Shown here piece after piece: positions 1,005-4,483 of a stretch of 9,536 nt of DNA. Position 1 is the stretch's first letter; each line of letters starts with the position of its first letter. The notes under the pieces are model-generated. The model was not told the origin of the DNA and did no database searches. It worked only from the letters and a program-made list of their open reading frames with translations. A program made the position numbers and the translations under genes. Location of the stretch: assembly GCA_019058515.1 (NCBI GenBank), contig JAHPYY010000075.1, forward strand, positions 1 to 9,536, given 5' to 3'. Origin of the DNA: Promethearchaeota archaeon (GTDB lineage Archaea > Asgardarchaeota > Lokiarchaeia > Sigynarchaeales > SOKP01).

Positions 1005-1781
1005 ATTTTACTAAACTACTTTATTGGAACCGCGGGAAGCGGGAAATCAACGATTACTGGATATTTGAAAAGCTATATTTTGAATAGAAATCCCGAGATA
1101 TCGGTTATCGCATTGAATTTAGATCCTGGGGTGGAAGTGTTACCCTATTCCCCGGATATTGATGTAAGAGACTACATCGTATTAAAAGATGTAATGAATG
1201 AGTTTCAACTTGGACCTAACGGTGCTATGATTTTAGCATCTGACTTGATGGTTAATTTTTTGGACGATATTAGAGATGAAATAGACGATTTGAATCCAGA
1301 TTGGGTATTAGTCGATACAGCAGGACAACTTGAGCTTTTCGCTTTTAGAGACACAGGTCCACTCATTGCGAGTTCTTTAGGGTTTGGTTCAATCCAAAAA
1401 GCGGTTACCTTTCTTTTCGATTCAAACTTGGTGTTAAGGCCAAACGGGTTTATCTCCACATTATTGTTAGCTGCTTCAGTGCAGTTCAGATTCCAAACAA
1501 TCCCCCAAATTAATATTTTATCTAAATCAGACTTAATCGACGAAGATCAGATTGATTTAATTATTAATTGGAGCCAGGATTTCATGGCGTTAGAAGACTC
1601 TACAAGCCAATTAGAGAGAGGATTAATAAGAGAATTATCAATGTTAATATCTGATGTGTTTGTTCAACTTGGCTCAACTGCAGAGCTATTACCATGTTCT
1701 ATTAAAGAAGAAAGAGGACTGGATCTAATATTTGGGGCTTTGCAGAGGGTTTTTGACGATGACTCCTCAAAATTTTATTAA
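1005..1781 (+). CDS. GPN-loop GTPase (archaeal ATP/GTP-binding protein)
   Basis: This is a P-loop GTPase of the GPN family. Archaea usually have one copy, and the eukaryotic paralogues GPN1-3 help assemble RNA polymerase II; the archaeal role is less clear. Counting from the proposed start, the motifs are: G1 GTAGSGKST (8-16), NLDPG (38-42), the diagnostic Gly-Pro-Asn in LGPNGAM (70-72), G3 DTAGQLE (from 104) and G4 SKSD (173-176). The 258-residue length is close to the roughly 250 usual for archaeal members. The first conventional start is a TTG at 1065, but using it would remove the whole P-loop. The frame is open upstream to 975 with no ATG, GTG or TTG. GAGGT at 993-997 is well placed for ATT at 1005, which would give ILLNYFIGTAG. 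A rare ATT start is therefore the best reading, though a base error in the assembly cannot be excluded. The gene follows the 564 gene after 60 bp and may share its transcript. Confidence 0.88.
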   Translation: MLLNYFIGTAGSGKSTITGYLKSYILNRNPEISVIALNLDPGVEVLPYSPDIDVRDYIVLKDVMNEFQLGPNGAMILASDLMVNFLDDIRDEIDDLNPDWVLVDTAGQLELFAFRDTGPLIASSLGFGSIQKAVTFLFDSNLVLRPNGFISTLLLAASVQFRFQTIPQINILSKSDLIDEDQIDLIINWSQDFMALEDSTSQLERGLIRELSMLISDVFVQLGSTAELLPCSIKEERGLDLIFGALQRVFDDDSSKFY

Positions 1782-1849: not shown

Positions 1850-2947
1850 ATGAAGATAATCGGTCCAATCGCCGGAATTGGCTCTAGACTTAAACCCTTT
1901 ACATTGTCAAAACCGAAAGCGTTTGTAAGGGTGGCGGGTAAAACGGTATTGGATCATATTCTAGAAAAATTCAACAATACTTTTGACAACGCTACAGAAT
2001 TAATTTTGATCGTTGGATACAAAAAACGCCAGATTATTGATTACGTAAAAGAAAATTACGAAGATAAGTTTAAGTTGACTTTTTTAGAACAAATTCCGAG
2101 GAAATACGAAGAAGATATACCAATCTTTTGGGGATTAGGCGAAAGCGTCTATATTGCTCGAGAAAGGTTTTCCTTCGCTGAGAATGGAAAGGATGAAGAT
2201 GATAAACGCGAAGGAGCACTAATATTTCTGGGAGATATGATTATACTGGACGAGTATTCTTACATAATGTACCGATACTACGAATCAAGTGTAGATGGCA
2301 TTATAACTGTAATGGAAGTACCAAAGGATCAAGCTAGCTCATATGGAATTGTGGTAACCGACGAAAAAAATATAATAACAAACCTCGTAGAAAAACCCCA
2401 AACTTATGTATCTAACTTAGCAATAGCCGGAATTTACGCTTTTTCAAAAAAAACTCTTCACGCTCTTTTTAAACATCTCAAAAAATACTTGGATGAAAGA
2501 ACCGAAAATTCTTCAGAAATTTATCTAACAGAAAGTTTACAGGATTTAGTTAATGATGGATTCAGAATAGCCGCTGTAAAATTAAAAAAGGGAATCTTAG
2601 ATTTTGGAAGACCTTCTGAAGTTTTAAATGGGAATAAGCACTTGCTTAAAAAAATCTCGGTAAGCAAAGAGGATTTTCAAAGTTTAAACGTAATATGCGA
2701 GCGTTCATACATAAAAAATCCCATTCATATAGGGAAAAACTCAAATATTTTTAACTCTGTAATAGGGCCCTATTGTTCAATAGGCGATAATACAACCATT
2801 GAAAATTGTATCATTTCAGATTCGGTCATTGAAAGGAATTCATCTCTTAAAAACATCATAACTCATTCCTCTATTATTGGAAGTGATGTAAAAGTCGAGA
2901 ACATTATAAAAGATAACCTAATAATTGGAGATAAAAGTGTTTTTTGA
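1850..2947 (+). CDS. Sugar-1-phosphate nucleotidyltransferase with left-handed beta-helix domain
   Basis: This cytoplasmic enzyme would join a nucleoside triphosphate to a sugar 1-phosphate, giving an NDP-sugar for glycans or glycosylation. The N-terminal nucleotidyltransferase domain (about 1-250) opens with GIGSRLKPFTLSKPKAF (9-25), matching the family GxGxRLxPxT...PKP loop. It continues with a GLGESVYIAR segment, GDM (D129, the usual metal-binding Asp position), VEKP (180-183) and LDFGRPSEVL with D251 as the second acidic site. Residues from about 290 to the end are hexapeptide-like repeats (HIGKNSNIFNSVIGPYCSIG and onward), the left-handed beta-helix of RmlA-long, GlmU and Sulfolobus ST0452-type proteins. 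An acidic insertion around 95-120 is unusual. The helix stops after about 75 residues with no extra tail, so an acetyltransferase activity cannot be read from the sequence. Sugar and nucleotide are not predictable. It stands alone, with its own promoter. Confidence 0.85.
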   Translation: MKIIGPIAGIGSRLKPFTLSKPKAFVRVAGKTVLDHILEKFNNTFDNATELILIVGYKKRQIIDYVKENYEDKFKLTFLEQIPRKYEEDIPIFWGLGESVYIARERFSFAENGKDEDDKREGALIFLGDMIILDEYSYIMYRYYESSVDGIITVMEVPKDQASSYGIVVTDEKNIITNLVEKPQTYVSNLAIAGIYAFSKKTLHALFKHLKKYLDERTENSSEIYLTESLQDLVNDGFRIAAVKLKKGILDFGRPSEVLNGNKHLLKKISVSKEDFQSLNVICERSYIKNPIHIGKNSNIFNSVIGPYCSIGDNTTIENCIISDSVIERNSSLKNIITHSSIIGSDVKVENIIKDNLIIGDKSVF

Positions 2948-3139: not shown

Positions 3140-4483
3140 ATGCCTTATAAAATTGCATTTGATTCTTCCCACAAGGAAAGAGGGAGTATAGAAAAGAATT
3201 ATAGTCAACTAAAAGAGCTTTTAGAATCGAATAATTTTCAGTGCGATAACTTCGCGGAGCCAGGCATTAATCAAACAAATATAACTAGCTATGATATTCT
3301 AGTATTCGCTTGCCCTGATTTCGCGAAGATATCTCGTCAAGAGATTGCCGAAATTGAGAAATGGGTTTCCCGAGATGGAGGCGGACTACTGATTCTATCC
3401 CACGCGGGAGGAGATAAAGGAAGAAGTAGCAATTTAAGCGAACTAAGCGAACGATTTGGGATAGCGTTTGAAAACGACCAAGTATTAGACGAAAAGAAGA
3501 ATATTATGGACATTGAGAATTTACCACTGATTACTGAATTTATACCTCCACATCCGATAACACAAAATGTAAATGAAATATGTTTTAGAGCAGGATGCTC
3601 GCTGTCGGTTGTTGGAAATGCGTTTTCGATATGCTCTTCCAATGAAACATCTGAGCCTTTCTCGTGTCCATTGATTTGCATCTCTCAACCAGAAAATGGC
3701 AGAGTTTGCGCTGTAGGAAGTTACGAGATGTTTAGAAATGATATTGGGGGTGGATTAACCTACGGAGACCATAGCAAACTTATTTTAAACATATTTAACT
3801 GGTTAATATCTGACAAAAGAATATTTTCTGAACATGAAGCAGTAGTAGAATCCGCTGAAGAGGGAGAAATTACCGATGTAGCTGAAGTAGAGGAAGCTTC
3901 TCTCGAAACTACCGAAGAAGAGAAAATAACAATCCCCAAATTAACCTTATCAGAAATTACTAGTAAAAATGACATTATTAATCTACTTAACTCTTTTTCA
4001 ATCCAACTAGATACAATGAAATTGACCGTCGAAAATATAGTTAGCGCTCTTTCCGAATCATCTTCTGAAAGTAATTCTGATCTTAGCAACGACAATGACA
4101 TTGTAAAGGAAATTTTTGGTCCATCCAAATTATCAGAATTACCTCCAAAACCAAAATCCATCAAAAATAGCGGTGAACCTGTTCAAATTAAAGCACCAAA
4201 AATGGAAGAAGTAATCGACACAAAATCTACGAAAATCGGAAAGAAGGGCGTTAAACCCTCTAAAATTGGAGACGAGTTTGAACAGATACAAGAGGAAATA
4301 GAACGATTGGAGAAAAAACTAACCTCTATTTACAACTTATTGTCATTTCTCGATAAAAAATATAACTCAGGCAAGATCACCGAAAAAGAATACAAAAAGC
4401 AGAAGAGTAAGCTTCAAAAAGACATTGAAAACACGCGGAAGCGATTAAAAGAAAGGAATAAGTCCTTAGAAGAGGGATCCTAA
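3140..4483 (+). CDS. GIFT-domain protein resembling eukaryotic IFT52, with C-terminal coiled coil
   Basis: This 447-residue soluble protein has no signal peptide or membrane span. Residues 1-227 form a GIFT-type (GATase-like, DUF4350-related) domain. It starts KIAFDSSHKE and continues with DILVFACPD, an EKWVSRDGGGLLILSHAGG strand-loop, NLSELSERFGIAFENDQV, CSLSV and GRVCAVGSYEMF, then ILNIFNWL. The order and wording follow my recollection of IFT52 (GPREKF, GGDVFVMLGEGGE, NINFLLEEYGI, GKLAVLGSCHMF, VFQWL). After an acidic linker rich in Glu (230-265) and a charged disordered middle, residues 378-447 form a coiled coil containing LDKKYNSGKITEKEYKKQKS, a helix-turn-helix motif common at archaeal C-termini. 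GIFT domains lack the amidotransferase catalytic Cys and are thought to act in protein or carbohydrate binding. The partner and process here are unknown. The neighbour HMGL gene converges 6 bp away and gives no functional clue. Confidence 0.72.
   Translation: MPYKIAFDSSHKERGSIEKNYSQLKELLESNNFQCDNFAEPGINQTNITSYDILVFACPDFAKISRQEIAEIEKWVSRDGGGLLILSHAGGDKGRSSNLSELSERFGIAFENDQVLDEKKNIMDIENLPLITEFIPPHPITQNVNEICFRAGCSLSVVGNAFSICSSNETSEPFSCPLICISQPENGRVCAVGSYEMFRNDIGGGLTYGDHSKLILNIFNWLISDKRIFSEHEAVVESAEEGEITDVAEVEEASLETTEEEKITIPKLTLSEITSKNDIINLLNSFSIQLDTMKLTVENIVSALSESSSESNSDLSNDNDIVKEIFGPSKLSELPPKPKSIKNSGEPVQIKAPKMEEVIDTKSTKIGKKGVKPSKIGDEFEQIQEEIERLEKKLTSIYNLLSFLDKKYNSGKITEKEYKKQKSKLQKDIENTRKRLKERNKSLEEGS

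Follow-up and report, generated by a model that had tools for sequence, protein, structure and literature searches.

An IFT52-like GIFT-domain protein from a core, mostly single-copy family of Asgard archaea

The window analysed here, a 9,536-nucleotide stretch of DNA from a Promethearchaeota archaeon (contig JAHPYY010000075.1), carries an open reading frame situated exactly where the initial annotation had placed it. Its product exhibits a predicted modular structure in which an N-terminal GIFT domain is followed by disordered and helical segments (Table 1); both the acidic linker and the C-terminal helices described in that annotation were recovered by structure prediction.

Table 1. Features of the window discussed in the text.
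Feature	Position	Strand	Evidence
GPN-loop GTPase	1020..1781	+	ATP_bind_1, 146.4 bits; P-loop before first listed start codon
Sugar-1-phosphate nucleotidyltransferase-like gene, directly upstream	1850..2947	+	NTP_transferase, 91.6 bits
Asgard IFT52-like GIFT protein gene	3140..4483	+	ORF, ATG start, 447 aa
GIFT domain, residues 1-229	3140..3826	+	IFT52_GIFT match
Acidic linker, predicted disordered, residues 230-275	3827..3964	+	pLDDT <50 at 235-265; little conserved among homologues
Predicted helix, residues 276-307	3965..4060	+	Structure prediction; conserved ISxKSELxxLLxxFxNQI motif opens helix
Second disordered linker, residues 308-375	4061..4264	+	pLDDT <50 at 308-335 and 337-374
C-terminal helical hairpin, SHOCT-like, residues 376-446	4265..4477	+	pLDDT >90 over most

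This frame is a real gene, since it has 551 homologues (E≤1e-3; 7990 candidates scored) and relatives with 35-63% identity at 67 loci in genome contigs (L001-L067). Among the best 120 of the 551 homologues, every one carries PF23355 according to a precomputed column, and the named organisms are mostly Promethearchaeota, Lokiarchaeota, Hodarchaeota or alike; 60 of the 67 loci lie on contigs labelled Lokiarchaeota or Lokiarchaeia. The nearest rows in the homologue, locus and tree comparisons are Lokiarchaeia, which settles in favour of an Asgard host a point that the initial annotation had left conditional. One locus, L065, is labelled Candidatus Bathyarchaeota; its phylum set is nearly identical to that of a Lokiarchaeon, so the label is probably wrong.

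Genome-wide searches covered a sample of 195 Asgard genomes from a larger group, with 14 control genomes as the sole comparison of this kind outside Asgard. The IFT52_GIFT model (PF23355) matched 187 of the 195 at E≤1e-3 (178 above the cut-off, with 1-11 matches per matching genome) and none of the 14 controls, two of which matched PF09822 (one above cut-off). A profile of family A, to which the window protein belongs, found 154 of the 195 genomes at 1e-20 and 129 at 1e-60 or better, which corresponds to orthologue level. Among the matches listed, places scoring at least 233 bits occurred once per genome, with two in G004 and G149, and the next place scored 200 bits. Family A is a core, mostly single-copy GIFT-domain family of Asgard archaea. 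On plasmids, tblastn with Chlamydomonas schloesseri IFT52 returned no match; the window protein matched one record, the Asgard protein L078 two, and L086 eight, these last at E 2e-3 or weaker except for a Nonomuraea record at 2e-8. Two unusual arrangements were observed: an Asgard ORF (L079:1-2232:-) in which a GIFT domain precedes a protein-L-isoaspartate methyltransferase (PCMT) domain, and a Lokiarchaeia contig with tandem GIFT ORFs (L052:2412-4588), the second of which (234 aa) is divergent and lacks the C-terminal hairpin.

The genomic context was compared across L001-L067, where some contigs end early and each locus was centred on the longest non-overlapping ORF that covered the match. 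Immediately before the GIFT gene and on its strand, 56 of the 67 loci have the NTP_transferase gene; 50 have the GPN-loop GTPase as the second gene upstream, and in 33 the GIFT gene is followed by an HMGL-type synthase gene on the opposite strand; at L064 the centre seems to be an antisense ORF and the neighbours may be misread. Two families without a Pfam match at E≤0.001 also recur, one of about 326 aa (e.g. L029:4870-5847:+) three genes upstream in 33 of the 67 loci and one of about 128 aa (564-944 in the window) four genes upstream in 27. In the window, the P-loop of the GTPase (GTAGSGKST) lies in frame upstream of the first ATG, GTG or TTG, the stretch from the preceding stop codon to the P-loop has no usual start, and the 5' end of this gene reflects either a rare start codon or a sequence error. 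The DNA methylase ORF (N6_N4_Mtase) at 1-506 on the minus strand encodes 77 aa, compared with about 267 aa in typical relatives, and another frame seems to hold more of it, as expected of a frameshift or pseudogene. In other Asgard lineages the neighbours of family A include genes for a DNA ligase, DNA polymerase B, isopropylmalate dehydrogenase or a HIT protein. Because these neighbours differ, no general function can be read from the context, and an operon-based assignment was not adopted.

The N-terminal 229 or so residues matched IFT52_GIFT in two stretches with 58.1 bits (E 9.3e-16), well above the curated cut-off of 27.2, which assigns the domain to the GIFT superfamily. A phmmer search of the PDB retrieved three IFT52 sequences, two from Chlamydomonas and one from mouse (E 6.4e-9, 2.6e-8 and 4.7e-5), the three remaining rows having E values of at least 1.9. 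Identity between the GIFT domain and 14 eukaryotic IFT52 rows amounted to 23-29%; within it, GRVCAVGSYEMF corresponds in the alignment to GRIAVLGSCAMF of Chlamydomonas IFT52 and the FNWL region to the end of IFT52, as the initial annotation had described. HHalign paired an alignment of 32 sequences (A1), picked solely for their similarity to the window protein, with an alignment of 28 eukaryotic IFT52 sequences over 213 columns of the GIFT domain (99.1%, E 1.3e-18). With a profile built from 25 Asgard GIFT proteins (A2), IFT52 was retrieved at 2.5e-32 and chains of other GIFT-fold proteins were absent at E≤0.01; five further rows matched its coiled-coil part. Because the IFT52 Pfam model had been used to collect A2 and most Asgard comparators outside L001-L067, these comparators lean towards IFT52. 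The predicted structure has its best PDB fold match in IFT52 crystal structures, the cryo-EM IFT52 chains ranking below the best OST48 chain. The IFT52-type GIFT domain is thus the best Pfam, PDB sequence and PDB fold match of the protein.

The IFT52 HMM scored up to 109 in family A (median 72, n=45), 79 in family B and 75 in family C; outside Asgard it reached 34 in Actinomycete DUF6421 and 27 in haloarchaeal DUF4350 proteins, and five Asgard OST48-like proteins reached 27-47. Conversely, the family-A HMM scored IFT52 up to 111 (median 97), family B 162, family C 165, DUF6421 78 and DUF4350 47. Set against the GIFT families tested, the affinity to IFT52 is specific in sequence, and specific in fold where the IFT52 crystal structures are concerned. 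Judging by sequence similarity, family A is the closest to IFT52 among the prokaryotic GIFT families tested.

Beyond the GIFT domain the likeness is one of layout. In IFT52 (IFT-B1; PF23355, PF23352 and PF21178), according to the available portions of two reports, the protein bridges IFT-B by way of a GIFT domain associated with IFT-B2, a disordered middle that passes through IFT88/IFT70 and a C-terminus paired with IFT46 (PMC10191852, PMC7561706). The window protein shares the order of N-terminal GIFT domain, disordered middle and helical C-terminus, but its tail differs: neither IFT52_central (PF23352) nor Itf52_C (PF21178) was found in it at E≤1 (Pfam), and HHalign gave a probability of 0.1 for each. 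Hence the comparison to the overall layout of IFT52 made in the initial annotation holds for the order of the parts, whereas those after the GIFT domain have no detectable IFT52 homology, and no cilium is implied. Searches for partners and missing regions were run on Asgard genomes other than the window's own; IFT52_central was matched in 0 of 195, Itf52_C in 0 of 3, and IFT46, which had been named as a possible partner, was above cut-off in 0 of 195, all three being weak negatives because the control genomes were silent as well. The sole IFT46_B_C match at E≤1e-3 in the 195 genomes was L191 (G052:C41:42745-43038), at 21.8 bits for a cut-off of 22.2, within a 979-residue open frame. The possibility that the window protein is IFT52 itself was rejected on the missing central and C-terminal regions and the IFT46 result.

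The C-terminal hairpin, with its GKITEKEYKKQ motif, is what we take to be a SHOCT-like element (PF09851); the hairpins are alike, yet the C-terminal piece scored 15.7 bits, under the SHOCT cut-off of 27. A hairpin profile matched 63 of 66 family-A ORFs of L001-L067, 25 of the 47 remaining family-A ORFs (20 of 42 once the Loki-type L070, L072, L077, L117 and L141 were set aside, L052 being counted in another class) and 0 of 16 family-B ORFs.

With GIFT homology, predicted fold, layout and family distribution calculated, we consider it somewhat probable that the family-A protein is a cytosolic scaffold or adaptor combining a GIFT domain with a coiled coil, from the mostly single-copy Asgard family closest to IFT52 among those tested. 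We infer a cytosolic location, in which the GIFT domain would dock on a partner, or bind a small ligand, at the end of a long acidic disordered tether, and the C-terminal helices would oligomerise the protein. Such an arrangement would follow the modular logic of IFT52, in which IFT-B is bridged through a GIFT domain, a disordered middle and a dimerisation domain at the C-terminus.

A scaffold or adaptor is the most likely reading, and a ligand-binding protein is its main rival. The latter would be a GIFT protein that binds, or acts on, a small molecule such as a sugar or nucleotide-sugar and is partnered with the neighbouring nucleotidyltransferase, its likeness to IFT52 reflecting shared domain ancestry only, and we regard it as possible, on balance doubtful. 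In its favour, the NTP_transferase gene is the immediate upstream neighbour at 56 of the 67 loci. A sugar-binding role was proposed for GIFT domains, which take their name from GldG and IFT52 (Beatson and Ponting 2004, as cited in the available part of PMC7226087), and the fold neighbours of the predicted domain include ThuA and GH42-type domains. The residues Glu68, Gly80, Gly91, Asn98, Pro173 and Gly187 are common to family A and IFT52. Three others are retained in the window protein and replaced in IFT52: Asp117 (33 of 34 family-A and 10 of 14 family-B rows; Arg in all 14 IFT52 rows), His138 (32 of 34 and 14 of 14; Arg or Lys in all 14, the alignment being gappy near this position) and Cys153 (34 of 34 and 12 of 14; Ala or Ser in 13 of 14). 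Since they are conserved in families A and B and replaced in IFT52, they may form a site for ligand binding or catalysis that these Asgard families retained and IFT52 lost. Against a sugar-related role, the two rows of family C keep the Asp and Cys and have Ser in place of the His, the two bacterial rows lack both His and Cys, no enzyme family was above cut-off for the window protein in Pfam or NCBIfam, and the nucleotidyltransferase link is not general, given the different neighbours in other Asgard lineages.

Far less probable is that the window protein is simply one of the common archaeal GldG-like ABC-transporter auxiliaries or DUF4350 proteins, with no special affinity to IFT52. ABC_transp_aux (PF09822), DUF4350 and the DUF6421 N-terminus have a GIFT-like domain in common with it, and the first scored 34.2 bits, barely below its cut-off of 34.7; DUF4350 (PF14258) gave 23 bits (E 1.1e-4) for a cut-off of 30.4. 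Among the A2 members, all 25 matched IFT52_GIFT at E≤0.01, 22 ABC_transp_aux, 20 DUF4350 and 6 OST48_N, and several of ten Asgard paralogues scanned singly also exceeded the ABC_transp_aux or DUF4350 cut-off. However, IFT52_GIFT scores far higher on the window protein and was the top GIFT-type family in all ten paralogues, NCBIfam returned nothing at E≤0.1, none of the other scanned ORFs of the window matched an ABC transporter family in Pfam, and five non-Asgard DUF6421/DUF4350 comparators fell under the IFT52_GIFT cut-off (20.6, 13.8, 11.8, not listed and 17.4). The placement with bacterial GldG/DUF4350 proteins that would have undone the proposed IFT52 affinity did not occur. The contexts of these families differ too, in that haloarchaeal DUF4350 genes have MoxR genes in their vicinity and DUF6421 proteins have a large C-terminal domain behind the GIFT-like part. 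Two Actinomycete DUF6421 proteins (L107:2983-5109:+ and L168:1486-3609:+) have an N-terminal GIFT-like domain with DUF4350 above cut-off.

OST48/WBP1 is the GIFT subunit of oligosaccharyltransferase. OST48_N (PF03345) did not match the window protein at E≤1 (Pfam); it was found in 8 of the 195 Asgard genomes, above cut-off in 4, and at no family-A place among the matches listed. Three of these four genomes (G015, G087 and G166) also hold family-A members (L109, L082 and L084). In genome G169 the OST48_N match overlaps a divergent IFT52_GIFT match. The five Asgard OST48-like ORFs that were read have a hydrophobic stretch at their start, as judged by eye. Asgard WBP1 has been reported only in Heimdallarchaeia, including Njordarchaeales, as far as the available part of a 2023 study goes (PMC10307638). 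The best IFT52 match of all, at 113 bits, is L078, with which L109 groups in the 66-row tree, and this clade may represent a heimdallarchaeial branch.

Trees were built four ways, with AU tests on three. Sampling reduced 146 GIFT domains to 75 with less than 75% identity to each other, three fragments being left out; the 66-row tree was derived from 95 rows by removing 14 divergent Asgard loci, the duplicate of a Nonomuraea row entered twice (once under an Asgard label), 11 near-copies and three haloarchaeal rows. In this tree, which had bacterial DUF6421 as its outgroup, a single branch (88/97) separated the 34 family-A rows from the others, and the 14 IFT52 rows stood beside family A with support of 65/17; placing IFT52 with family B (p 0.253), with family C (p 0.19) or with bacteria outside all Asgard (p 0.476) was not rejected. 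A 57-row tree on stricter columns, which further omitted six eukaryotic rows and L130, L073 and L066 and kept eight eukaryotic rows, supported IFT52 with family A at 77/75, and again neither the L078 clade (p 0.255), families B and C (p 0.383) nor bacteria (p 0.442) was rejected as the partner of IFT52. When four of the five Asgard OST48-like rows were added (L194 was left out, its domain lying only partly in the kept letters), family A formed a firm clade (100/99) with IFT52 outside, weakly grouped with the OST48-like rows (64/72), and IFT52 with family A was not rejected (p 0.24). This tree goes against the pairing of family A and IFT52 seen in the other two. In summary, the kinship is firm and the trees and AU tests leave the exact descent of IFT52 unfixed. 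The suggestion of a precursor of a ciliary transport component thus stands as to specific IFT52 affinity and falls short as to precursor, the protein not being an IFT52, three tree alternatives having AU p values of 0.19-0.48 and the OST48-like grouping being weak.

Transfer of IFT52 from a eukaryote to Asgard archaea would fit the shared specific affinity but is the least credible explanation, as Asgard archaea hold several diverse GIFT families, IFT52 is a single clade (100/100) across its 14 diverse rows, and the Asgard rows lie outside eukaryotic IFT52 in the 66-row, 57-row and OST48-added trees.

IFT52 probably arose from the Asgard GIFT pool, with a changed C-terminal part and loss of the Asp, His and Cys residues. 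More tentatively, and with considerable doubt, eukaryotic IFT52 might descend from family A itself, a core protein of GIFT domain and coiled coil with a putative Asp/His/Cys ligand or active site. The archaeal host would then have passed on family A, the site would have been lost, a middle region that threads through TPRs and a tail that binds IFT46 would have been gained, and the scaffold role would have been reached before or during the origin of cilia. In the literature covered, which left bioRxiv and most subscription papers outside its scope, IFT52 was not paired with Asgard or Promethearchaeota, and an earlier description is possible; the available text of PMC10307638 does not mention IFT, intraflagellar, cilia or GIFT, nor does a 2026 study of Asgard tubulins (PMC13394414) mention IFT, intraflagellar or cilia.

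How the intraflagellar transport machinery originated is among the open questions of eukaryogenesis, and one IFT-B subunit now gains a concrete archaeal candidate source, whose GIFT domain is, by the sequence comparisons made, the closest to IFT52 among the families tested. This parallels the Asgard WBP1 reported, in the part of PMC10307638 available, as a source for the GIFT subunit of oligosaccharyltransferase. That family A is the closest prokaryotic match to IFT52 among those tested and is present in most of the sampled Asgard genomes suggests that this piece of the cilium was rooted before cilia, and the idea that GIFT served as a ligand-binding or docking module before cilia becomes testable.
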